Below are positions 1 to 23,248 of a stretch of DNA of 64,000 nt, in pieces. The notes under the pieces were generated by a model. It searched no databases, was not told the origin of the DNA, and worked only from the letters and a program-made list of their open reading frames with translations. Each line of letters starts with the position of its first letter. The stretch's first letter is position 1. Origin of the DNA: Methanocorpusculum sp. (lineage in GTDB: Archaea; Halobacteriota; Methanomicrobia; Methanomicrobiales; Methanocorpusculaceae); the NCBI GenBank assembly GCA_017408885.1, contig JAFQTT010000003.1, positions 299,128-363,127 of the forward strand, given 5' to 3'. The translations under genes and the position numbers were made by a program.

Positions 1-1067
1 TGTTATGCAGTTTTTCTCTTCGCGCCAGTGCATGCCTTTGGCAATCGCATCCTGATGCGAGCCGGAGAATGCTGCAAATACTAATGCCCCTGCATAAGGC
101 TGACGATCTGGAACATGCATGCGGGTTACTCTCTCATAGACTTCTACAATTTTCGGCATCTCTGCAAAGTCAAGCCCAGGATCCACACCCTGCGCATACA
201 TGTTCAATGCAAGAGTTACGAGATCGGTGTTTCCGGTCCGTTCTCCGTTTCCAAAGAGTGTTCCTTCGATGCGGTCTGCACCTGCCAAAATCCCGAGCTC
301 GGCATCAGCAACAGCACAGCCTCTGTCGTTGTGCGGATGAAGGGAGACAACGACCTCTTCGCGGTATTTGAGGTTGTCGCACATGAACTCGACCTGATCT
401 GCATAGACATGAGGGCTTGAGAGCTCGACTGTTACCGGCAGGTTGATGATTGCTTTTCTGTCCGGCGTAGGCTTCCAGATATCAAGGACAGCGTTACAAA
501 CAGAAAGAGCGAACTCTGGTTCTGTTCCGGTGAATGATTCAGGTGAGTACTCAAAGCGGTATGGAGCTCCGGTTTCTTCGGCGATTTTTTTGCAGAGTAC
601 GGCTCCTTCAACTGCGATTTTGGTAATCTCTTCTTTGGATTTTCTAAACACCTGTTCTCTTTGTGCAACGGATGTTGAGTTATAGAGGTGAACGACTGCA
701 TTTTTGCAGCCTTCAAGTGCCTTGAAGGTTTTTCTGATGATGTGCTCTCTGCTTTGGGTTAAAACCTGTACAGTGACATCGTCTGGTATCATGTCCTGTT
801 CGATTAAGGTCCGAAGGAAGGTGTATTCAGTCTCAGACGCGGCAGGGAAACCAACTTCGATTTCTTTGAAGCCAATGTCTACTAAGAGCTTGAAGAACTC
901 GAGTTTTTCTTCGAGGCTCATTGGGATGATTAAGGACTGATTTCCGTCTCTTAAGTCAACTGAGCACCAGACAGGGGGCTGTTCTATTCTGCTTTTCTCA
1001 ACCCATTTACGGGCGGGGTTCTTTACTGTAAAGAACTGTGTTGTGTATTTTTCTGCGTTGTGCATGC
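1..1067 (-). CDS. leuA: 2-isopropylmalate synthase (5' part, runs off the left edge)
   Basis: Condenses acetyl-CoA with 2-oxoisovalerate, the first committed step of leucine synthesis. About 355 N-terminal residues are present. Visible are the LRDGNQS motif near residue 40 at the start of the TIM barrel, [12 protein letters not shown] region ([10 protein letters not shown]), and the metal-binding SLHPHNDRG motif. The N-terminal extension ([18 protein letters not shown]) and the wording of the barrel fit the long, actinobacterial-type LeuA rather than the shorter archaeal citramalate/isopropylmalate synthases; that suggests acquisition by transfer. The C-terminal regulatory domain lies outside the window. 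The ATG at 1067 has only a weak GAG upstream. It lies 83 nt after the stop of a leader ORF (1151-1249). Confidence 0.9.
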
Positions 1068-1085
1068 TCTTTTTGAGGATGACAA

Positions 1086-1097
1086 AAGCTTTCGCTT
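1086..1097 (-). promoter_or_regulatory. Small GAAA-tetraloop hairpin before leuA
   Basis: On the minus strand AAGC-GAAA-GCTT can form a 4-bp stem (6 bp with two G-T pairs) capped by a GNRA loop and followed by TTG. It lies 19 nt before the leuA ATG. It may be part of the leader fold; too short to call a terminator. Confidence 0.3.
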
Positions 1098-1127
1098 CCG
1101 GATATTTGATGAAATTCGATACGGTAT

Positions 1128-1139
1128 GACGAATACGTC
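1128..1139 (-). promoter_or_regulatory. Post-stop hairpin motif GACG-TATT-CGTC of the leuA leader
   Basis: A self-complementary 12-mer (GACG, loop TATT, CGTC), extendable to 5 bp, starts 11 nt after the stop codon of the leuA leader ORF. The identical 12-mer lies 13 nt after the stop of the ilvB leader ORF (8066-8077). Identity in an otherwise diverged stretch suggests a functional RNA element. Confidence 0.5.
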
Positions 1140-1150
1140 AGTGGTTTGAA

Positions 1151-1249
1151 TTATGCACGTAGTGCGGATAGGAAAAGAGCTGCGGCAGATAGGGTTGCCT
1201 GGGTGGAAGAGTATTTCGATGCGGTACAGGGTTTGGTGTGTGTTTGCAT
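1151..1249 (-). CDS. Predicted leuA leader peptide, 32 aa, Leu-containing tail
   Basis: An ATG at 1249 follows GAGGTGA with 9 nt spacing, a good archaeal Shine-Dalgarno. The ORF begins MQTHTKPC, has a core ASKYSSTQATLSAAALF, and ends LSALRA-stop (TAA at 1151-1153). Four Leu codons fall in the last 13 codons: CTA, CTT, CTA, CTA. The peptide is homologous to the ilvB leader ORF at 8091-8207: 17 of the first 26 residues are identical by eye, and synonymous bases are also kept (for example CGCATCGAAA and CCTATCTGCCGCA). After residue 26 the two diverge, Leu here and Ile there. Inference: a cis-acting leader peptide whose translation reports leucyl-tRNA supply to leuA 83 nt downstream. Confidence 0.72.
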   Translation of the reverse strand: MQTHTKPCTASKYSSTQATLSAAALFLSALRA

Positions 1250-1312
1250 TGGTTTCTTCACCTCGGCGTATGTGTGTTAACATATGTCATACTTGTAAGG
1301 ATAAATAAGTAT
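1250..1312 (-). promoter_or_regulatory. Promoter and 5' UTR of leuA leader
   Basis: On the minus strand a TATA-like CTTATTTATCC lies at about 1300-1310. A start about 25 nt downstream would fall near 1275-1280, leaving a UTR of roughly 28 nt that carries GAGGTGA (1258-1264 region) before the leader ATG. An 8-bp palindrome TGTTAACA (1275-1282), inside flanking GTATG/CATAC arms (1268-1272, 1288-1292), sits at the expected start site and might be an operator. Confidence 0.5.
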
Positions 1313-1354
1313 GGGTAAGCTATCTGTCACTCGGCTGAAAATGAGGGTAAACCC

Positions 1355-1729
1355 TCACAAAACCTCCGCCACTGCTTCCACTTCCACCAAAGCCCCACGC
1401 GGCAAATCTTTTACTGCAACACAGCTTCGTGCAGGCTTATTCGGCATAAACTCCGCATACACCGCATTAAATGCGGCAAAGTCCGCCATATCCGAAAGGA
1501 AACACGTTGTCTTGACAACCGTCTCCGGCGATGCCCCGGCAGCCTCGAGTACCGCACAGAGATTTTCCATAACCTGCCGTGTCTGGGTGGTGATATCCGC
1601 CCCCACAATCTCTCCTGTCTCCGGGGAAAGGGCAATCTGTCCGGAGGTAAAGCAGAGTCCGCCGGATACAACTGCCTGCGAATAGGGGCCGAGTGCTGCC
1701 GGTGCCCAGTCGGTATGTATCTGCTTCAT
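1355..1729 (-). CDS. ridA: RidA/YjgF enamine-imine deaminase
   Basis: 124 residues, full length for the RidA family. It hydrolyses reactive 2-aminoacrylate and 2-aminocrotonate enamines released by PLP dehydratases such as threonine deaminase. Seen: N-terminal APAALGPYSQAV, FTSGQIAL, and RSCVAV with Arg101, equivalent to the substrate-carboxylate arginine of the family. The start ATG overlaps the ilvA stop (ATGA), so it is the last gene of the ilv operon. Its partner is the enzyme directly upstream, which makes the enamine it detoxifies. Confidence 0.93.
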   Translation of the reverse strand: MKQIHTDWAPAALGPYSQAVVSGGLCFTSGQIALSPETGEIVGADITTQTRQVMENLCAVLEAAGASPETVVKTTCFLSDMADFAAFNAVYAEFMPNKPARSCVAVKDLPRGALVEVEAVAEVL

Positions 1730-2943
1730 GGTTCCCGCTCCAGAAGCTTAAAGCCCGCACCGCACAGCGCATCTTTAATGGCTTTGATATGGTCGAAGTT
1801 TCTCGTCTCCAGCGTCAGGCGCAGATAGCATCCGTTCACATCCGCTCCTTCGCAGGTGTGTTCATGGAACACTGCTGTTACATTGCCGCCTTCGCGGGCG
1901 ATAATCTCAGATACCTGCATGAGCTGTCCCGGCTTGTCCACGAGTTCGATTAAGAGCTGACAGCTTCGTCCGGACATCAGCAGACCGCGGGCAATGACGC
2001 GGGAGAGGATGGTCACATCAATGTTTCCTCCGGAGAGAAGACAGACTGCCTTCTTTCCCGCAAGATCCACTTTGCCAAACATCGCAGCGGCCACCGCAAC
2101 CGCTCCGGCTCCTTCGGTTACCAGTTTGTGCCGCTCCATCAGCGCCAGAATCGCCGCAGAGATTTCATCGTCGGTGACCGTTACAATCTCATCCACGTAC
2201 CGCGAGCACAGCTCATAGGTAAGCGATCCTGGCTGTTTTACCGCGATACCGTCTGCGATAGTAAATACCGAGTCGAGCGCTTCGATGTGCGAATCATGAA
2301 TCGAGTTCAGCATGGAGGGAGCGCCTGATGCCTGCACGCCGTAGACTTTGACATTCGGATTCAGCGCTTTCAGAGTAAAAGCGATGCCGGAGATTAATCC
2401 GCCGCCGCCGATCGGCACTAAGACCGCGTCTAAATCCGGTACCTGCTCTATGAGTTCGAGGGCGATTGTTCCCTGGCCGGCAATCACATCCGCATCATCA
2501 AACGGGTGGATGAATGTATATCCAAACTCGTTTTGCAGTTCCAGCGCCTTCTGATATGCATCATCATAGACGCCGTCGACCAGACAAATCTCCGCCCCGT
2601 AGCTTCGCGTTGCTTCAACTTTGGAAATCGGCGCACCGTTCGGCAGACAGATTACTGCCCGGATGCCGTTTTTCTGTGCGGCAAGGGCAACCCCCTGGGC
2701 ATGGTTTCCGGCAGAGCAGGCGATAACGCCTTTTGCCTTCTCCTCTGCCGAGAGCTGCGACATCTTATAGCATGCCCCGCGGACCTTGAAGGAACCTGTT
2801 ACCTGCAGGTTCTCGGTTTTCAGATACAGTTCGAGCCCCGGCGCAAGTTTCGGGGCATAGAGTACGTCAGTTTTCCGCACCACATCGCGGAGGACGTAGC
2901 TTGCTTTATAGACACTGTCCAATGTGAGTTCTTTTTCCGTCAT
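1726..2943 (-). CDS. ilvA: Threonine ammonia-lyase (threonine deaminase) with ACT domain
   Basis: 405 residues. Converts threonine to 2-oxobutyrate, the isoleucine-specific entry step, with PLP. Seen: TGSFKVRGA with the PLP lysine at residue 53, a glycine-rich VPIGGGGL phosphate site, LLSGGNID, and a C-terminal ACT domain (about 330-405) starting LLIELVDKPGQL. The single-ACT, 400-residue layout is that of the catabolic-like/short biosynthetic type (TdcB/IlvA2) rather than the two-ACT E. coli IlvA. It lies 10 nt downstream of ilvD and overlaps ridA by 4 nt. Confidence 0.93.
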   Translation of the reverse strand: MTEKELTLDSVYKASYVLRDVVRKTDVLYAPKLAPGLELYLKTENLQVTGSFKVRGACYKMSQLSAEEKAKGVIACSAGNHAQGVALAAQKNGIRAVICLPNGAPISKVEATRSYGAEICLVDGVYDDAYQKALELQNEFGYTFIHPFDDADVIAGQGTIALELIEQVPDLDAVLVPIGGGGLISGIAFTLKALNPNVKVYGVQASGAPSMLNSIHDSHIEALDSVFTIADGIAVKQPGSLTYELCSRYVDEIVTVTDDEISAAILALMERHKLVTEGAGAVAVAAAMFGKVDLAGKKAVCLLSGGNIDVTILSRVIARGLLMSGRSCQLLIELVDKPGQLMQVSEIIAREGGNVTAVFHEHTCEGADVNGCYLRLTLETRNFDHIKAIKDALCGAGFKLLEREP

Positions 2944-2953
2944 AGTTTCCCTC

Positions 2954-4624
2954 TCAGCCGCGGAACTGGTTGATGACTGCTCCGCGGTCCGCAGAACTTA
3001 CCTGCTCTGCATACCGTGCCAGACAGCCGGTAAGGCCGGTCTTCTTTTTGATTTCCATTGTTTCTTTGCGTGCTGCTATCTCTTCGTCTGATACATCAAG
3101 CGATATCGAGTACTCCGGGATGTTGATGGAGATTCTATCCCCGTCTTTGACATAGGCAATCAGCCCGCCGCGGACTGCCTCCGGTGAGACATGTCCAATA
3201 GATGCCCCGCGGGTAGCACCGGAGAAGCGTCCGTCAGTGATTAACGCCACATCGCGGTCCAGTCCCATGCCGGCGATAGCAGATGTCGGAGACAGCATCT
3301 CCCGCATGCCTGGTCCTCCGGCAGGACCTTCATAGCGGATGACCACCACATCGCCTTTTTTAATCTCTCCTGCGTAAATTGCCGATATTGCCTCCTCTTC
3401 GGAGTCAAATACCCGGGCAGGACCTGCGTGCACCAGCATCTCCTCTGCAACCGCACTTCTCTTGACCACACAGCCGTCCGGTGCTAAGTTTCCGCGAAGA
3501 ACCGCGATACCTCCTGTTTTGCTGTACGGATTGTCTGCAGGGCGGATGACCTCCGGGTTTTTGTTCTTTGCCTGTGCGATGTTTTCGCCTATGGTCTTTC
3601 CAGTGCAGGTTAGAGCCGAGAGATCGAGAAGTCCTATCCGGTTAAGTTCAGAAAGCACCGCATAAACTCCGCCTGCCTCGTCCAAGTCTTCCATGTAGGT
3701 GTTTCCGGCAGGAGCCAAGTGGCAGAGGTTCGGCGTTTTCTCACTGATTTCGTTTGCCATGTCAAGGTTCAGAGTAATACCGCACTCGTTGGCGATTGCC
3801 GGCAGGTGGAGCATACTGTTCGTGGAACATCCAAGCGCCATGTCTGCAGTGAGTGCATTTCTGAATGCCGCCTCGGTCATAATATCACGCGGACGGATGT
3901 TTTTCCGGACAAGATCCATTACCTGCATGCCCGCATGTTTGGCAAGCGCGATTCTGGCGGAATAGACCGCCGGAATCGTGCCGTTGCCGGAAAGTCCCAT
4001 GCCGAGCACCTCAGTTAAGCAGTTCATCGAGTTTGCCGTGTACATGCCGGAGCACGAACCGCAGGTAGGACACGTCTTCTGCTCGCAGACGGCAAGCTCT
4101 TCTTCGGTGATTTTTCCAGCGGTATAGGCGCCGACTGCTTCAAACATGCTGGAAAGACTCGTCTTTTTCCCGTTCAGCTTTCCGGCAAGCATGGGACCTC
4201 CGGAAACAAAGATTGTCGGGATGTTGAGACGGGCGGCTGCCATCAGCAGTCCCGGGACATTTTTGTCGCAGTTTGGGACCATGACAAGACCGTCAAAGCC
4301 GTGAGCTCGGACCATTGCCTCGGTGGAATCGGCGATGATGTCGCGGGTAATCAGCGAGTACTTCATGCCGGTATGTCCCATGGCGATGCCGTCACAGACC
4401 GCAATCGCCGGGAACATAATCGGGGTTCCTCCGGCCATGGCAACACCGAGCTTTACAGCCTCGACAATCTTGTCGAGGTTCATGTGTCCCGGTACAATCT
4501 CATTGTGTGAACTGACGATACCGATTATTGGCCGCGAAAGCTCCTCTCCGGTCAGACCTAACGCGTGGTACAGACTTCTGTGCGGAGCATTGGCAAATCC
4601 GTCAACGATAGTATCCTGTATCAT
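2954..4624 (-). CDS. ilvD: Dihydroxy-acid dehydratase
   Basis: 556 residues. Dehydrates 2,3-dihydroxy acids to 2-oxoisovalerate and 2-oxo-3-methylvalerate with an Fe-S cluster. Seen: PNCDKNVPG with cluster cysteine 119, [18 protein letters not shown] near residue 190, and [10 protein letters not shown] near the C-terminus. I place the start at ATG 4624, two bases after the ilvC stop; an upstream in-frame start would add twelve residues that overlap ilvC and have no family counterpart. Confidence 0.95.
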
Positions 4625-4626
4625 GA

Positions 4627-6148
<1,522 letters not shown>

Positions 6149-6152
<4 letters not shown>

Positions 6153-7855
6153 GCGGCTTCCTCCTTTGCGGTGATGATATCGTCGATTGAGCCTCCTGGC
6201 GGAAGCATCGGGAGGACAAATTCATCTTTGTCGATTACGGTGTCGATGACAAACGGGCCTTCGTGAGAAAGGGCCGCAGACAGTGCGGCACGGAGTTCTT
6301 CTTCGGTGGTGACGCGGACCGCTTTTGCGCCGAATGCTTCGGCAAGTTTGACGAAGTCGGTTTTGCGGTTGAGCAGAGTGTGCGAGTATCGTTTTCCGTA
6401 GAAGAGCGTCTGCCACTGGCGAACCATGCCGAGGACGCCGTTGTTGAGGAGGACAACGGTTACCGGCAGATTGTACGAGACAGCGGTTGCCATTTCGTTT
6501 AAGTTCATGCCGAAACTGCCGTCTCCTGTGACAAGGATGCTTCTGCCTCCTGTTCCAACAGCCGAACCAACAGCAGCCCCAAGCCCGAATCCCATCGTAC
6601 CGAGCCCGCCGCTTGAGGCAAACGTCCGCGGACGTTCAAAGGCGGCGTACTGTGCGGTCCACATCTGATGCTGTCCGACATCTGTTGCGATTACGATATC
6701 CGGGGTTTTTGCGGCGTTGATACAGTCGAAGATCTTCTTCGGCGTCAGAGCATCGCCTGCGGCAGCTTCGGCGGCGTCTAAGATGCGGCGTCCTTCTTCT
6801 TTGAGGGATGCAACTTTTGCCGTCCATGCCGGATGAGATGCAGATGCGCACTGTTCCAGGATGCGGGAAACCGTTGATGTGATGTCTCCGGAGATTCCGC
6901 AGTCGACATGGATGTTTTTGCCGATTTCCGCAAAGTCTGCGTCGATATGGATGACTTTTGCGCCGCTGGCGTACTTTTCGGCGTTTCCGGTTGCCCGGTC
7001 GCTGAAGCGAACCCCGATACCAATGACAAGGTCTGCTTCTTTGTTTGCCATCGAAGATGCATAGGTTCCGTGCATGCCCTGCATGCCAAGGAACCGCGGC
7101 GAGTGTCCAAGCCCTGCGGTAAGGCCCATGAAGGTACATCCGATGCAGGCGTCGATTTTGTCAGCGAGTGCTAAAACGTCCTCCGCGGCGCCGGATGCAG
7201 CAGCCCCTCCGCCGATGTAGAGGTATGGGCGTTCTGCGGCATTGATGAGCGAGACGGCTTTTTCTATCAGAGATTCGTCTGCTTTCTTCTGCGGAAATGC
7301 TTCAACAACTCCGCATGGCTCAAAGAGGCATTCAGCTGTCTGGACGTCCTTTGGGATGTCAATGAGCACAGGTCCGGGTCTTCCAGACTTGGCGATTTGG
7401 AAAGCTTCGCGGATGGTGTCTGCGAGGTCTTCGACATCTGATACGAAGTAGTTGTGCTTCGTAATCGGCATGGTAACCCCTGTGATGTTGATTTCCTGAA
7501 AGCTGTCCTTTCCAATCTGAGAAGATGCGACGTTTCCGGTGATTGCGATTAAAGGGATGGAGTCAAGCATGGCTGTCGCGATTCCTGTGACGAGGTTGGT
7601 TGCACCCGGTCCAGAGGTCGCGATGACTACGCCGACTTTTCCGGTTGCCCGGGCGTAGCCGTCGGCTGCGTGTGATGCACCCTGTTCATGTGCTGTCAGC
7701 ACATGGGATAGCCGGTCGCTGGCGTTGTAGAGTGCATCATAGATGGTCAATACCTGACCTCCGGGATAGCCGAAGACATCGGTAACTCCCTGTTCTATGA
7801 GAGTCTCAACGACGATTTCTGCGCCGTTCATCTTTTTGCAAGTGGTCGTTGTCAT
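6149..7855 (-). CDS. ilvB: Acetolactate synthase, large catalytic subunit
   Basis: 568 residues. Thiamine-diphosphate enzyme that opens valine, leucine and isoleucine synthesis. Seen: GYPGGQVLTIYDAL, catalytic Glu57 in AHEQGASHAADGYAR, and the TPP/Mg motif GDGSFGMN...NNG near residues 440-470. I choose ATG 7855 (MTTTTCKK), preceded by GGAAG at 7 nt, over a TTG start at 7927 whose extra residues (MYVLPCRALTF) have no counterpart in the family. About 236 nt of untranslated sequence then separates it from the leader ORF at 8091-8207. First gene of ilvBNCDA-ridA. Confidence 0.94.
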
Positions 7856-7927
7856 ACGATTCTTCCAGATTTTGTTTACGAATACAATCATGCCGAATGT
7901 TAGCGCGCGGCATGGTAACACATACAA

Positions 7928-8008
7928 TCAGTACAATTGGTGAAGATATCCCGACAGGAATTTCTGAAACAACCCCGTCCTTCTCGAACAGACTTCTGCA
8001 TTGTGCAT
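7928..8008 (-). CDS. Possible 26-aa ORF headed by a relic of the leuA start
   Basis: An ATG at 8008 begins MHNAE, the same five residues that begin leuA, then continues with unrelated residues to TGA at 7928. On the minus strand AAGAGCATGCACAA is identical to the leuA start region, followed after one mismatch by GCAGAA. The ATG lies 82 nt after the leader stop, against 83 nt in leuA. It probably marks the junction where a leuA leader copy was fused upstream of ilvB. Whether it is translated is unknown; its upstream signal is weak. Confidence 0.4.
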   Translation of the reverse strand: MHNAEVCSRRTGLFQKFLSGYLHQLY

Positions 8009-8029
8009 GCTCTTAACAGAGAGTATGCA
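8004..8029 (-). promoter_or_regulatory. Hairpin in the ilvB leader
   Basis: TGCAT-CTCT arms with a 1x1 mismatch pair with AGAG-ATGCA across a 6-nt loop, giving 9 bp. The hairpin encloses the relic ATG at 8008. It has no U-run, so it is not an obvious terminator; it could hide or expose a translation start. Confidence 0.4.
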
Positions 8030-8065
8030 GGAACGTTCGTTTAACGGATAAAGTCGGGTTTAATT

Positions 8066-8077
8066 GACGAATACGTC
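8066..8077 (-). promoter_or_regulatory. Post-stop hairpin motif GACG-TATT-CGTC of the ilvB leader
   Basis: The same 12-mer as at 1128-1139, placed 13 nt after the stop of the ilvB leader ORF. Flanking AATT on both sides could extend the stem with a bulge. Confidence 0.5.
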
Positions 8078-8090
8078 TGAATTTTCAGCT

Positions 8091-8207
8091 TTATGCAATA
8101 ATGGCAATAATGCTAATAATACTAATAATGAAAAGAGATGCGGCAGATAGGCGTGCCTGAGTAGAGGATGATTTCGATGCGGGTGTTGTTTGCGTTGTTC
8201 TTTGCAT
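8091..8207 (-). CDS. Predicted ilvB leader peptide, 38 aa, Ile-rich tail
   Basis: An ATG at 8207 follows GAGGTGA with 9 nt spacing. The ORF begins MQRTTQTTP, has the core ASKSSSTQARLSAASLF, and then ends in II-S-II-S-II-A-II-A before TAA (8091-8093). All eight isoleucines use ATT, in four pairs within the last 12 codons. It is homologous to the leuA leader ORF (1151-1249) in sequence, start signal and following hairpin, while the tail has changed from Leu to Ile. Inference: a leader peptide that senses charged tRNA-Ile (perhaps also Ala/Ser) to control ilvBNCDA. A small structural or membrane peptide is the alternative. Confidence 0.75.
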   Translation of the reverse strand: MQRTTQTTPASKSSSTQARLSAASLFIISIISIIAIIA

Positions 8208-8270
8208 GTGGTTTCTTCACCTCGTAGTATGTATGTCAGATTATATCTGACCTGATATAATAAAAAGGTT
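8208..8270 (-). promoter_or_regulatory. ilv operon promoter with 17-bp dyad
   Basis: On the minus strand TTTTTATTATATC (8254-8266) is a good archaeal TATA box. A perfect dyad GTCAGAT-3nt-ATCTGAC (8235-8251) sits directly downstream, at the expected transcription start, a classic place for a repressor. The Shine-Dalgarno GAGGTGA and leader ATG follow. Sequence from the leader ATG up to about the GTATGT repeat resembles the leuA leader; the dyad itself is not shared. Confidence 0.55.
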
Positions 8271-8367
8271 GCGCATCATAAATTCAGCTATGCCTTGTAA
8301 TCAAGGAATACCTAATCTGATTACTAATTGGAGAGGGATAAAAACCCTCAAAAAATATTGATTTTCA

Positions 8368-8388
8368 AAACACCTGATACAGGTGTTT
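8368..8388 (-). terminator. Hairpin at the end of the ACT-domain gene
   Basis: AAACACCTG-3nt-CAGGTGTTT forms a perfect 9-bp stem that overlaps the stop codon of the minus-strand ACT gene and is followed by T-rich sequence (ending in TTTTTTG at about 8351). It fits a transcript end. Confidence 0.6.
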
Positions 8389-8821
8389 AGAAATTATAAT
8401 CCTTTGCCGGAAGCAGCTCAAGACCGGATTTCTTAATCTTCTCAACAGCCTCAACCGGATTTTCGACCTTTGCAATCAGTGCTCCATAGTCTTTGGTACG
8501 GTAACCGTAAGAGTACTCGATGTTGATTCCAAGGTCACCTAAGAGACCGACTACCTCATAGAGACCTCCTGGCACATCGTTCATCTTGATTGCCAAGACA
8601 TCCGTGTACTTTAACACATAATTCTTCTTCGCAAATGCCTCGAATGCAACCTCCGGTTTATCAACAATCGCACGGACAACACCGAAATTGTTTGCCTCTG
8701 CAATATAGAATGCCTGAATTGAGATACCTGCATCAAGGAAAATTTTTGCAATTGCAGCAAGCTTTCCTGCTTTGTTCTCTGAGAAGATAGACAGCTGTTT
8801 GATGATATACTCTTCACTCAT
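8387..8821 (-). CDS. Tandem ACT-domain protein
   Basis: 144 residues comprising two ACT domains (about 5-70 and 72-140; LSIFSENKAGKLAAIAKIF and MNDVPGGLYEVVGLL). ACT domains bind amino acids, so this is probably an aromatic amino acid sensor that adjusts the neighbouring acyl-CoA ligases; no enzyme domain is present. It starts one base after the upstream paaK stop, in the same operon. In many methanogens this type of protein is encoded with phenylacetate-CoA ligase and indolepyruvate oxidoreductase. Confidence 0.8.
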   Translation of the reverse strand: MSEEYIIKQLSIFSENKAGKLAAIAKIFLDAGISIQAFYIAEANNFGVVRAIVDKPEVAFEAFAKKNYVLKYTDVLAIKMNDVPGGLYEVVGLLGDLGINIEYSYGYRTKDYGALIAKVENPVEAVEKIKKSGLELLPAKDYNF

Positions 8822-8822
8822 T

Positions 8823-10127
8823 TTACATCACTCTCTTGTCGATAACACGTCTTGCTTTACCCTCAAAACGCGGAAGGGAATTCGGCGGACACAGCTCAAC
8901 TCTTGCGGAGACATTTAATGCATCGCGAAGAGTACGCTCTGCGATTCTCTGCATCTCCATAAGTCCGTTGACGCCGTCAGTCATTGCATCCGGCTTCAGC
9001 TCAACCTTGACCAGCATATCATCCAGACGTCCCTCGCGGGAAACCTCAATCATGAAGTGGCTGGTTAAGAACGAGTTCTTCAGGAGAGCATGCTCAACTG
9101 CCGATGGGAATACATTGATTCCGCGGATAATAAGCATATCGTCCACACGACCGCTTAAGCGGGCAATTCTGGGGCTTGTTCTGCCGCACGGACAGTCACC
9201 CTCAAGGATAGAAGTGATGTCTCCGATTCTGTAGCGAATCATCGGGATTGCCTCCTTCTTTAAGACAGTCATGGTAAGCTCTCCCTTCTCTCCAGGCTCT
9301 AACTGCTCGCCGGTTTCAGGATCAATGATTTCAACGTATGCTAAGTCTGCGCCGATGTGGATACCGTTGAGTTCGGAACAGTCGGTAAACATTGGTCCTG
9401 AAATCTCGGAAGTTCCAAAGATATCGTGTGCAACGATTCCGGACTTCTCGTAGATGTACTTTCTCATCTCGTCAGTCCATGGTTCCGCACCAAGGATTGC
9501 GGTTCTGACCTGAGTATCCTTTCTCATGTCAACGCCCATCTTCTCTGCAACATCGAGTAAGTGGATTAAGTAAGACGGAGTACAGGCGATGGCAGTAGAG
9601 CCTAAGTCCTGTGCAAGTTCAATCTGACGCTTGGAGTTTCCAGTGGATGCCGGAATAACAGTGGCTCCAACCTTCTCTCCTCCGTAGTGGAGACCAAGAC
9701 CTCCGGTGAAGAGACCGTATCCGTAACAGACCTGTAAAACATCTTTTTTGCCGATGCCGCAGGAAACAAGTGAGCGTGCAAGGGCTTCAGTCCAGAGATT
9801 ATCAATATCGCCCTGTGTGTAGGCGACAACCGTTGGCTTTCCGGTAGTACCGGAGGAAACATGGTATCTCACGACATCGTCTTTTGGAACACAGACAAGC
9901 TTATCCGGATAATTGTCGCGGAGGTCGGTCTTGCGCATAAACGGAAGCTTGGTGATGTCCTGAATACACTTAATATCATCAGGACGAACACCTGCTTCCT
10001 TCATCTTTCCGCTGTAAAACGGAGAGTTAGCATATAAGCGGGTGACTAACTGTTTTAATTCCTGATACTGGAGCTTTTCCATCTCCGGTTTCGGCATCGT
10101 CTCAATCTTTTCGTTGTAGTACTGCAT
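8823..10127 (-). CDS. paaK: Phenylacetate-CoA ligase (copy 2)
   Basis: 434 residues, AMP-forming ligase of the PaaK family. Seen: VSSGTTGKPTVVAYT adenylate loop near residue 95, DIFGTSEISGP, YRIGDITS and a C-terminal domain with RGINVFPSAVEHALL. Likely activates aryl acids, or works in reverse on aryl-CoA esters formed by the indolepyruvate oxidoreductase encoded at 22.7-25 kb, conserving ATP. Start ATG 10127 lies 4 nt after the stop of the first copy; an in-frame upstream start would overlap that gene. Confidence 0.88.
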   Translation of the reverse strand: MQYYNEKIETMPKPEMEKLQYQELKQLVTRLYANSPFYSGKMKEAGVRPDDIKCIQDITKLPFMRKTDLRDNYPDKLVCVPKDDVVRYHVSSGTTGKPTVVAYTQGDIDNLWTEALARSLVSCGIGKKDVLQVCYGYGLFTGGLGLHYGGEKVGATVIPASTGNSKRQIELAQDLGSTAIACTPSYLIHLLDVAEKMGVDMRKDTQVRTAILGAEPWTDEMRKYIYEKSGIVAHDIFGTSEISGPMFTDCSELNGIHIGADLAYVEIIDPETGEQLEPGEKGELTMTVLKKEAIPMIRYRIGDITSILEGDCPCGRTSPRIARLSGRVDDMLIIRGINVFPSAVEHALLKNSFLTSHFMIEVSREGRLDDMLVKVELKPDAMTDGVNGLMEMQRIAERTLRDALNVSARVELCPPNSLPRFEGKARRVIDKRVM

Positions 10128-10131
10128 TTTT

Positions 10132-11418
10132 TTAAACCGTCCTGCGGTCAATAACACGTTTTGCTTTTCCTTCAAAGCGGGGAAGGGATCCCGGCTCTTT
10201 GAGTTCGACACGGGCGCGAATGGTCAGCGTCTCCTGAAGAGCTTTCATAATTTTTGCCTGGAGTCTTGAAAGGTCCGCGAGTTCGCCGGAGAAGACAGAC
10301 TTGCTCATCTCGACTTCTATTGTCATCTCGTCAAGGTGGTTGATTCTGTCGATGTAAACCATGAACTGGTCTCCGACATCCGGGATGTTCTTTAAGACGT
10401 GTTCAATCTGACTCGGGAATACGTTGATTCCGCGAATCGTGAGCATATCGTCGCTTCTTCCAAAGAAGCGGGCAAGCTTCTGTCCCCTGCCGCATGGACA
10501 GTCATCTTCCATGAGCATGGTGATATCTCCTGTGCGGTAGCGCAGAAGCGGCATTGCTTCTTTGACGAGCGGTGTTACGACGAGTTCTCCTTTCTCGCCG
10601 GCTTCGAGTGTTTCTCCGGTCTTGGGGTCAATAATCTCGACGAGGTAGCTGTCGTGCCAGATGTGAAGACCGTCCTGTTCCTGACATTCAAAGGCGACGC
10701 CCGGACCGAAAAGTTCGCTCATTCCATAGCTGTCGTAGGCTTTGACGCCTAAACGGTTTTCAAGGTCACGTCTTGTGTTGTCAGACCATGCTTCGGCACC
10801 AAAGCATCCGATTTTAAGAGAACTTAAGTCAGCGTTCATCTCTTCGGCTACTTCGGTTAAGTGCATGGCGTAACTTGGAGTACAGTGAAGAGCGGTTACG
10901 CCGAAGTCCTGAATCATTTCAATCTGACGTTTGGTGTTTCCAACGCCTGACGGGACTACAGCACATCCGATGGCTTCGGCTCCCATGTGGATTCCAAGAC
11001 CACCGGTGAATAAGGAATAGTTTGCTGCGTTCTGGAAGATATCGCCTGCTTTGATTCCAACCATGGTGAAGTTGCGGGCTAAGAGTTCAGTCCATGCGGC
11101 AAGATCGTTTTTGGTGTAGGCGACAACAGTCGGCTTTCCTGTGGTGCCGGATGTTGTGTGGATACGGTTTACCTGGTTCATCGGTACGGCTAAGAATCCG
11201 AATGGATATCCGCCGCGAAGATCTGCCTTTTTGGTGAACGGGATTTTGGTGATGTCGTCTAAGGTCTTGATGTCATCAGGAGAGATTCCTGCCTCTTTGA
11301 ACATCTGTTTGTAAAATCCGACATTCTGAGTCTGCTTAATGGTTGCCTTTAGGCGTTTTAGCTGGAGCTCTTTTAGGTCTTTGCCCTTTAAGGTCTCCAT
11401 CTTTTCATTCCAAAACAT
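10132..11418 (-). CDS. paaK: Phenylacetate-CoA ligase (copy 1)
   Basis: 428 residues. Paralogue of the downstream copy, with TTSGTTGKPTVVAYT, YDSYGMSELFGPG, YRTGDITM and GINVFPSQIEHVL. The pair together with the ACT protein forms one minus-strand operon. The copies differ throughout, so they probably prefer different aryl acids (for example phenylacetate and indoleacetate). The substrate cannot be read from the sequence. Confidence 0.88.
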   Translation of the reverse strand: MFWNEKMETLKGKDLKELQLKRLKATIKQTQNVGFYKQMFKEAGISPDDIKTLDDITKIPFTKKADLRGGYPFGFLAVPMNQVNRIHTTSGTTGKPTVVAYTKNDLAAWTELLARNFTMVGIKAGDIFQNAANYSLFTGGLGIHMGAEAIGCAVVPSGVGNTKRQIEMIQDFGVTALHCTPSYAMHLTEVAEEMNADLSSLKIGCFGAEAWSDNTRRDLENRLGVKAYDSYGMSELFGPGVAFECQEQDGLHIWHDSYLVEIIDPKTGETLEAGEKGELVVTPLVKEAMPLLRYRTGDITMLMEDDCPCGRGQKLARFFGRSDDMLTIRGINVFPSQIEHVLKNIPDVGDQFMVYIDRINHLDEMTIEVEMSKSVFSGELADLSRLQAKIMKALQETLTIRARVELKEPGSLPRFEGKAKRVIDRRTV

Positions 11419-11548
11419 AATTTATTCCTGCTCTTTGCTGTACGTGTGTATGGCACAAGGTGTCATGCTACTCGTTAGCACCCTACATATATGATGTGCT
11501 ACATATTAAGGGTTGCTTAATCACTTCAAAAAAGATGTGAAAAAAGTA

Positions 11549-12148
11549 TTATTTGCGGCAGACAATCGCCGCGTGGTCGATGTGATACGGATTAAGCCAC
11601 AGGCTCTTTTCGATTGTAAGACCGGCTGCTTCAAGCTCTGCGCAGCTTTCCGCAAAGACCTCTTCTGGAGTTTTTCTGATGTCGACAGAACGTGTCTTAA
11701 GCATCAGAATAAGCCTGCCTCCTTTTTTCAGGAATGGAATGTGGCGGACTGCAATTCCTGCCTGATTGGGCTGAGCCACATCCATGTACACCATGTCAGC
11801 AGGCTCTAAAAGGGCTGCATACTCTCTTGGTCTTGTGGCATCTCCATAGATTGGGATGATGTTTTTACGTCTTGCAGAAACAGCCAGTAAATCCTGCATC
11901 GGGCGCGGAGCGAACTCGACAGCATAGACGCACTCGGTGTAGTCTGCAACGTGCGAGACTGTCGTACCGTTGGCCGCTCCTAAGTAGAGCACAACCTCAT
12001 CTTTTTTCAGGTCTGTTGTCTTGTCAAGATACCAGAGTGCAGAAAGTTTGCTTCTGTACGGATCCCAAACGCGGCATCCTTCAAGCATTCTTTCTCCATA
12101 GACGCCGCCTGCACCTTCAGACACCAGAGTTCCCCGAATGTCCTTCAT
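11549..12148 (-). CDS. flpA: Fibrillarin-like rRNA/tRNA 2'-O-methyltransferase
   Basis: 199 residues. Catalytic subunit of archaeal box C/D sRNPs, which methylate ribose 2'-OH at sites chosen by guide RNAs. Seen: N-terminal YGERMLEGCRVWDPYRSKL, SAM-binding VVLYLGAANGTTVSHVAD at about 47-64, GDATRPREY, and MDVAQPNQ. Start overlaps the nop5 stop (ATGA), so the two subunits are co-translated. Confidence 0.95.
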   Translation of the reverse strand: MKDIRGTLVSEGAGGVYGERMLEGCRVWDPYRSKLSALWYLDKTTDLKKDEVVLYLGAANGTTVSHVADYTECVYAVEFAPRPMQDLLAVSARRKNIIPIYGDATRPREYAALLEPADMVYMDVAQPNQAGIAVRHIPFLKKGGRLILMLKTRSVDIRKTPEEVFAESCAELEAAGLTIEKSLWLNPYHIDHAAIVCRK

Positions 12149-22663: not shown

Positions 22664-23248
22664 TTAGAGGACAACCTCGCGACCGAGGTTGAATGCCTTC
22701 TCGTTTATTTCAACAGTCTTTGGAGGAACGTTTCTGCGGACTGCTTCTGCGAGTGACTTTACCGCAAGCGGCAGAGTGTGAGATGCTGCACCCATTAAGA
22801 CGATGTTTGCGGCAAGCGGGCTTCCGGCCTTCGTTGCGATCTCTGTCGCATCGATTAAGATTACTTTGTGTCCGCCTGCCTTGAGTTCTGCTTCGACATC
22901 CTCAATCTTTGGAACAGGCAGTTTGTTCGAGTAGACGGATGTTGGAACAACCATCTCGCGGTTGATAATCATCGTTCCATTCGGCTTTAAGAAGTGACGG
23001 TAGCGAAGAGCCTCTAAGACATCGAATGCGATTAAGAGATCTGCGGTTCCGGGAGCGATTAACGAGCCGAACTTGCCGTCGATTCTGATGTGAGTTTCAA
23101 CAGAGCCTCCTCTCTGGGACATTCCATGGGTTTCTGCTCCTCTGACGTGGCGGCCTTCCAGGACGCAAGCATCTCCTAAGACGTTGGATGCGAGGATTGT
23201 GCCCTGTCCTCCGATTCCAACGATTAATACATCGTAACTCTTCTTCAT
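22664..23248 (-). CDS. iorB: Indolepyruvate:ferredoxin oxidoreductase, beta subunit
   Basis: 194 residues. Gamma/beta domain of a 2-oxoacid oxidoreductase (VLIVGIGGQGTILASNVLGD, GAETHGMSQRGGSVETHIR). With IorA it oxidatively decarboxylates aryl pyruvates to aryl-acetyl-CoA with ferredoxin reduction, or the reverse. Start overlaps the iorA stop by 4 nt. Confidence 0.94.
   Translation of the reverse strand: MKKSYDVLIVGIGGQGTILASNVLGDACVLEGRHVRGAETHGMSQRGGSVETHIRIDGKFGSLIAPGTADLLIAFDVLEALRYRHFLKPNGTMIINREMVVPTSVYSNKLPVPKIEDVEAELKAGGHKVILIDATEIATKAGSPLAANIVLMGAASHTLPLAVKSLAEAVRRNVPPKTVEINEKAFNLGREVVL

Follow-up and report, generated by a model that had tools for sequence, protein, structure and literature searches.

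We analyzed a 64,000-nucleotide (nt) stretch of DNA from Methanocorpusculum sp. (assembly GCA_017408885.1, contig JAFQTT010000003.1, positions 299,128 to 363,127 of the forward strand; hereafter, the window), in which the ilv and leu biosynthetic genes are each preceded by a short open reading frame (ORF) resembling a leader peptide. These genes are on the minus strand in the order ilvB-ilvN-ilvC-ilvD-ilvA-rid and then leuA, with leuC, leuD, and leuB lying beyond the window on the same contig (leuD was assigned from its position and reading frame, without a family search). The ilvB gene (6149..7855), encoding the acetolactate synthase large subunit, leads the ilv operon, whose remainder (ilvN, ilvC, ilvD, ilvA, and a Rid-family gene) occupies 1355..6152. 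The 5' part of leuA, which encodes a 2-isopropylmalate synthase of the PRK03739 / yeast-type family, covers 1..1065, and the gene extends past the window edge. The window lies on contig 3 (C3) of the 1.55-Mb source assembly (G000), which encodes methyl-coenzyme M reductase, so the organism is a methanogen. Within the window, there are genes for a fibrillarin-like methyltransferase and for an SRP54 protein that scores best with the eukaryotic-type model. With a fibrillarin-like protein on the same contig and methyl-coenzyme M reductase in the assembly, the host of both leaders is an archaeal genome.

The Leu leader ORF before leuA (1151..1249, minus strand) comprises 32 codons, MQTHTKPCTASKYSSTQATLSAAALFLSALRA, and the Ile leader ORF before ilvB (8091..8207, minus strand) comprises 38 codons, MQRTTQTTPASKSSSTQARLSAASLFIISIISIIAIIA. 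Each lies directly upstream of its operon and is led by the Shine-Dalgarno (SD) sequence GAGGTGA, located at 1258..1264 for the Leu leader and at 8217..8223 for the Ile leader (both minus strand). A preliminary description of this DNA had reported both ORFs as homologous, and our recount gave the same coordinates and the same identity, i.e., 17 of the 26 initial residues. Its statement that the leaders differ in the tail alone is too strong, since 9 of those 26 residues differ as well, and its SD spacing of 9 nt is correct for the Ile leader, whereas the SD of the Leu leader ends 8 nt before the ATG. The control codons read from the leader sequences are those that it listed: codons 20, 25, 27, and 30 of the Leu leader are CTA, CTT, CTA, and CTA, and the Ile leader carries eight ATT codons at 8129-8094 in its tail. 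With the gene families now assigned, these codons do correspond to the product of the downstream operon, namely, Leu before leuA and Ile before ilvB.

Codon content and start signals set the two ORFs apart. At the local Ile frequency, a tail with at least 8 Ile in 12 residues has a probability of 2e-7, and no 12-residue stretch within the 45 long ORFs of the window contains more than 5 Ile. Moreover, among 104 distinct SD-led short ORFs preceding a long ORF on contig C3 (a scan covering 363 kb, ~23% of the assembly), the ilvB leader displays the largest single-residue run (8/12; the next is 6). ATT is used for every codon of the run, though ATC is the commoner Ile codon. In the Leu leader, CTA accounts for three of the four Leu codons, though it represents 2.4% of Leu codons here (~5e-5 by binomial arithmetic). 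The SD sequences of both leaders reach -11.8 kcal/mol, as calculated against an anti-SD sequence, a strength that is matched by 6 of the 386 ATG-initiated ORFs of 25-45 amino acids in the window, the leaders included. Those of the genes themselves are weaker (-5.0 kcal/mol for leuA and -3.3 kcal/mol for ilvB).

Homologous leaders were found at all five known places, i.e., before leuA in G000 and G015 and before ilvB in G000, G013, and G015, where G013 and G015 denote two further species of the genus and L-numbers denote the loci compared. The counterpart of the Leu leader in G015 lies at L105:1093-1191, and those of the Ile leader lie at L089:1115-1234 in G015 and at L088:3466-3585 (minus strand) in G013. 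Between G000 and G015, 106 of 120 columns of the ilvB leader are identical (88%) vs 144 of 267 (54%) in the untranslated region (UTR) behind it, with gaps scored as differences. Of the codons that changed in this leader, 7 are synonymous and 3 are not, and all 3 of the latter are the first tail codons. Codons 2-26 contain 5 synonymous and 0 nonsynonymous changes (P = 0.003) together with one whole-codon insertion. By this substitution pattern, the ilvB leader is selected as a peptide. The Ile run is also kept, with 8 ATT codons in G000 vs 7 in G015, where the tail includes a Val. In the leuA leader, it is the C-terminal part with the Leu tail that is better preserved (35/42 columns identical), whereas the N-terminal part has drifted (36/62). 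All four Leu positions are retained in G015 as CTA, CTT, CTC, and CTA.

The leaders have a narrow distribution. Three of the 25 genus genomes match the ilvB leader region by DNA, and three of the 232 order genomes match the ilvB leader peptide, in each case G000, G013, and G015. Leaders were seen only together with this bacterial-type leu/ilv gene set. The same three genomes carry the bacterial-type ilvB (87-88% identical), while the full-length ilvB genes of ten other genus genomes are 46-55% identical to the window ilvB. One further genome (G022) contains ilvB fragments, and eleven genus genomes yielded no ilvB match, ten of them being <90% complete. For leuA, the identity is 86% in G015, and the other 2-isopropylmalate synthase-like matches do not exceed 32%, save for one short segment at 44%. 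In G013, the leuA start falls within an assembly gap that leaves 191 C-terminal residues; the run of N there (L147, from ~14000 upward) swallows the 5' part of leuA and a possible leader. The persistence among relatives that the preliminary description proposed as a check was borne out in the two relatives that have the system, but the system is not general to the order.

A scan for branched-chain runs in short upstream ORFs covered 55 loci, comprising 13 ilvB and 12 leuA loci of the genus as well as 30 ilvB loci of the order, the last being the best-scoring ones out of 135 genomes; the scan excluded L116-L134 as well as L100-L103, which are fragments or weak matches. Beyond the three known ilvB leaders, it returned one match, under a strict filter that overlooks the known leuA leaders. 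This match, a 60-amino-acid ORF before a leuA homologue (L115), is not leader-like.

The operon order differs among the three genomes. In G000, ilvBNCDA-rid is followed by leuACDB, while in G015, leuA, leuC, and leuB are ahead of ilvB, and G013 has the order of G015 with a leuA remnant next to the gap. The leu and ilv halves have therefore exchanged order between G000 and G013/G015 (window 1-8207, L148, and L147), each leader still accompanying its operon.

Given their anatomy and the selection acting on them, these regions likely work like leader-peptide attenuators. Amino-acid-specific leader peptides are a classical bacterial means of control, and we consider it probable that leuA and ilvB are controlled by ribosome stalling on their leaders, whatever the output. 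A shortage of charged tRNA would cause the ribosome to stall on the run of control codons, which would alter the reading of the downstream gene and thereby make leuA and ilvB expression responsive to leucine and isoleucine supply. As for the output, we give translational attenuation roughly an even chance. We prefer it because no T-tract terminator is present, because the SD sequences of the genes are weak and those of the leaders strong, and because the leuA start of G000 is predicted to pair with the Leu-codon region of the leader. At leuA, stalling would keep the leader arm occupied by the ribosome and leave the leuA start accessible, and full translation of the leader would let the pairing close. 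At ilvB, the step downstream of stalling is less defined.

The predicted pairing at leuA involves the start region AAAAAGAGC-ATG... (1053..1075, minus strand), which in the minimum free energy fold is complementary to the A-A-L-F codons of the leader, i.e., to the core arm CTGCCGCAGCTCTTTT (1173..1188, minus strand). It takes in the start codon together with the preceding bases (P = 0.0015). An alternative pairing, between the leader end and the leuA start (GTGCAT/TGCATA), occurs in both leuA species, with a chance expectation of 5-6% each. In all three ilvB UTRs, we observed a predicted long-range helix that joins the 5' end of the leader and its SD to a stretch located ~60-100 nt upstream of the ilvB start (P = 0.003, 0.008, and 0.006). 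Its 5' arm consists of CATACATAC plus the SD, GGTGAAGAA (8213..8235, minus strand), and its 3' arm of TCTTCACC and GTATGTG (7918..7946, minus strand). This helix is unsupported in the two leuA UTRs (P = 0.78 and 0.56).

We also folded each UTR using RNAfold with a ribosome masked at each Leu or Ile codon. In G000 leuA, masking at two of the four codons raised the value for the 15 bases before the start from 0.51 to 0.59-0.61, and the start of G015 leuA varied between 0.21 and 0.39. We do not take simple start-codon sequestration, as a full model, to be demonstrated, as it fits G000 leuA alone and masking behaved otherwise than the model needs.

Several observations weigh against control by leader peptides or narrow its basis. 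Under masking, the start codons were not freed. The G000 leuA start even became less free, falling from 0.34 unmasked to 0.27, 0.15, 0.12, and 0.04 masked, and the ilvB UTRs were unchanged, the G000 ilvB start being unpaired in every state. G015 leuA lacks the pairing between leader core and start (P = 0.62), and the ilvB UTRs show it only weakly (P = 0.09-0.16). The structure z score is -3.45 for G000 leuA but only -0.7 to -2.0 for the other four UTRs. The ilvB leaders of G013 and G015 are identical, so the five leaders represent only two independent lineages, and it is across these two that the control codons persist. The leuA leader as a whole (71/104 columns) is no better conserved than the promoter region (44/61; UTR, 53/93). 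Its composition is unremarkable among the C3 short ORFs, and 4 Leu in its last 13 residues have, alone, a probability of 0.026; what speaks for this leader is its homology, its rare codons, and its conservation. Tandem Repeats Finder identifies the Ile tail as a tandem repeat of 9-nt units, so the run could have arisen by slippage. Finally, according to PMC1262725, regulation in Streptomyces coelicolor was unaffected when candidate control codons before ilvB were mutated. The attenuation system proposed in the preliminary description is partly supported: homologous leaders, matching codons, and peptide selection at ilvB hold up, but masked folding gave no release of the start codons, and the pairing at G000 leuA has no counterpart in the second species.

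Control by leader peptides could also act on transcription. A stalled ribosome would then alter the structure of the nascent RNA or expose the RNA to an archaeal termination factor, and, in cells with ample amino acid, polymerase would stop short of leuA or ilvB. This variant draws on the same leaders and codons and benefits from the coupling of transcription and translation in archaea. It could also make use of a hairpin or palindrome behind the Leu leader stop, TGACG-TATT-CGTCA (1127..1140, minus strand), whose stem is kept in G015 around a changed loop, AAAC. However, this stem has been lost from the ilvB UTRs of G013 and G015, and the predicted folds of the five UTRs revealed no second, competing hairpin in common. 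In agreement with the preliminary description, which had noted the lack of a canonical U-run terminator, T-runs from leader to gene do not exceed 4 nt (4 in G000 leuA and 3 in the other four UTRs), so this is not a classical transcription attenuator. On balance, we regard a transcriptional output as rather unlikely.

The remaining explanations deny the ORFs a role as ribosome sensors. The region might act chiefly as DNA, providing the operator and promoter through which a regulator works, with the ORFs being incidental or a mere aid to ribosome loading. In favor of this, two species have the very same GTATGACATATGTTAACACACATA ahead of leuA, and G013 and G015 have a similar motif again, closer to ilvB. 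We find this reading improbable, since an operator would explain neither why codons 2-26 of the ilvB leader changed only synonymously and the inserted codon kept the frame, nor why the control codons match and the SD sequences are strong. Slippage within a non-functional duplicate, which would render the Ile run a meaningless tandem repeat, agrees with the 9-nt units that span the tail and with a relic of the leuA start that marks the region as a duplicate (see below). Yet the run is in frame, 7-8 Ile and the stop are kept in two lineages while the UTR behind has diverged to 54% identity, and the SD and start are preserved; we therefore find slippage very improbable. We attach about as little credence, or slightly less, to the ORFs being small functional proteins, such as membrane-associated peptides in which the Ile tail serves as a hydrophobic anchor. 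This idea would suit a hydrophobic 12-residue tail and the selection for the peptide seen in the N-terminal part of the ilvB leader, but such a tail is short for a membrane span, and the leuA homologue lacks it and has drifted in its N-terminal part (36/62 columns). Furthermore, the ORFs are in cis to leu or ilv genes at 5/5 known places, and a protein-database search with the 41-codon open frame of the ilvB leader gave no match and hence no candidate.

Among the closest known systems are bacterial leu and ilv attenuators, such as Salmonella leu, in which, as here, an SD-led short ORF with control codons for the product amino acid directly precedes a biosynthetic operon. The two leaders described here differ from those attenuators in their archaeal host, in having control codons at the end of the ORF, in the lack of an oligo-T terminator and of any terminator/antiterminator pair among our findings, and in the mutual homology of the leu and ilv leaders. 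The Leu leader also shares rare CUA codons with the Salmonella leu leader, and PMC1183508 describes a lowered sensitivity to leucine upon conversion of three CUA codons of that attenuator to CUG. The pairing predicted at G000 leuA resembles the base stem of the actinobacterial LEU element, which, as described in PMC1262725, has a Leu-codon upstream ORF (uORF) before leuA whose codon region pairs with the leuA ribosome-binding site. The partner in the LEU element is the SD of leuA, located where a pseudoknot has its base, whereas here it is the start codon and preceding bases, in one of two species; the folding that we used predicts no pseudoknots. There is a further parallel to translational attenuation of the ermC type, in which, according to PMC10219788, uORF stalling would expose the start of the main gene. 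The inducer there is an antibiotic, while the signal here would be uncharged tRNA. That paper, which presents a tool, also mentions regulation by uORFs in archaea as a general point. The preliminary description knew of no proven archaeal example, and among the matches listed from the full text of open-access PMC, we likewise found no demonstrated archaeal amino acid attenuator.

As judged from their closest matches, the leu and ilv genes under this putative control are a bacterial-type set closest to Clostridia. Clostridial ilvB sequences reach 72% identity, and the closest clostridial contig (L007) contains ilvB-N-C-D followed by ilvA-rid-leuA, the same order as the window, with identities of 72% for ilvB, 73% for ilvN, 88% for ilvC, 85% for ilvD, 82% for ilvA, 59% for rid, and 84% for leuA. 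The source of L007 is likely a relative of the donor. This locus (L007:2488-12488) comes from a metagenome-assembled genome, RGIG4680, from roe deer rectum, and its near-identical operon order is accompanied by a T-box. In L007, leuA begins 18 nt after the rid stop with an ordinary SD and no leader, whereas the corresponding gap in the window is 289 nt. PMC10035134 reports that host-associated Methanocorpusculum differ in their enrichment for amino acid biosynthesis genes and that marsupial lineages contain genes of bacterial origin.

T-boxes (RF00230) were detected in 4 of 8 bacterial loci tested (out of 80), namely, directly before ilvB in L007 and L008, before leuA in L012, and in L010. In L007 and L008, the T-box thus occupies the same place as the Ile leader, i.e., before ilvB. 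T-boxes sense amino acid supply by binding tRNA directly, unlike the leaders, where sensing would run through the translating ribosome. Rfam scans of the archaeal loci were empty: no family was found in window positions 1-12000 at E values up to 1, tRNA only was found in the entire window at the gathering threshold, and nothing was found in L147, L148, L105, and L179 at E values up to 0.1. No known riboswitch or T-box was therefore found there.

The ilvB UTR of G000 contains a relic of the leuA start, AAGAGCATGCACAATGCAGAA (7994..8014, minus strand), with 20/21 positions identical to leuA 1071-1051. On this account, the ilvB leader appears to derive from a copy of the leuA leader in which Leu in the tail was recoded to Ile. 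We infer both the direction of this copying and the operon transfer from sequence comparison. In the history that we propose, a clostridial-type leu/ilv operon would have been acquired, its T-box being absent here; an archaeal promoter-leader module would have arisen before leuA; and a copy of it, including the leuA start, would have been set before ilvB, with the tail recoded. We lean modestly toward this full account of archaeal leader-peptide attenuation, in which the T-box is gone and the two leaders would represent the first homologous attenuator pair redirected to two amino acids as well as the first system of this kind in Archaea. If it is true, archaeal ribosomes sense the supply of amino acids in cis and apparently do so with no T-tract terminator. 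A T-box would also have given way to a leader peptide once the genes had been transferred, and this new regulatory device would have been re-aimed through the recoding of one tail. Attenuation in archaea would then become directly testable with few codon changes. In G000, the relic opens a 26-codon ORF, MHNAEVCSRRTGLFQKFLSGYLHQLY (7928-8008, minus strand), and G013 and G015 read CTG in place of its ATG.

Upstream of the Leu leader lies a promoter- or operator-like element, TATTTATC plus GTATGACATATGTTAACACACATA (1269..1307, minus strand), of which GTATGACATATGTTAACACACATA is the part identical in G015. A 19-position pattern derived from this element has one mismatch-free match in the assembly, all others having 3 mismatches, and we presume a promoter role for it. 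A motif similar to the leuA promoter (TATGCTAACACACA in G013 and G015) is found directly before ilvB (window 7890-7925, minus strand; L089 ~1425-1465), beside a 6-bp hairpin with one compensatory change. The motif and hairpin are perhaps a second operator or promoter.

Farther upstream of the ilv leader, the minus strand carries a small gene (8387-8821), a phenylacetate-CoA-ligase-like gene (8823-10211), and a second gene (10132-11418) that resembles the latter by eye. The window also contains a gene for an indolepyruvate oxidoreductase beta subunit at 22664-23248.

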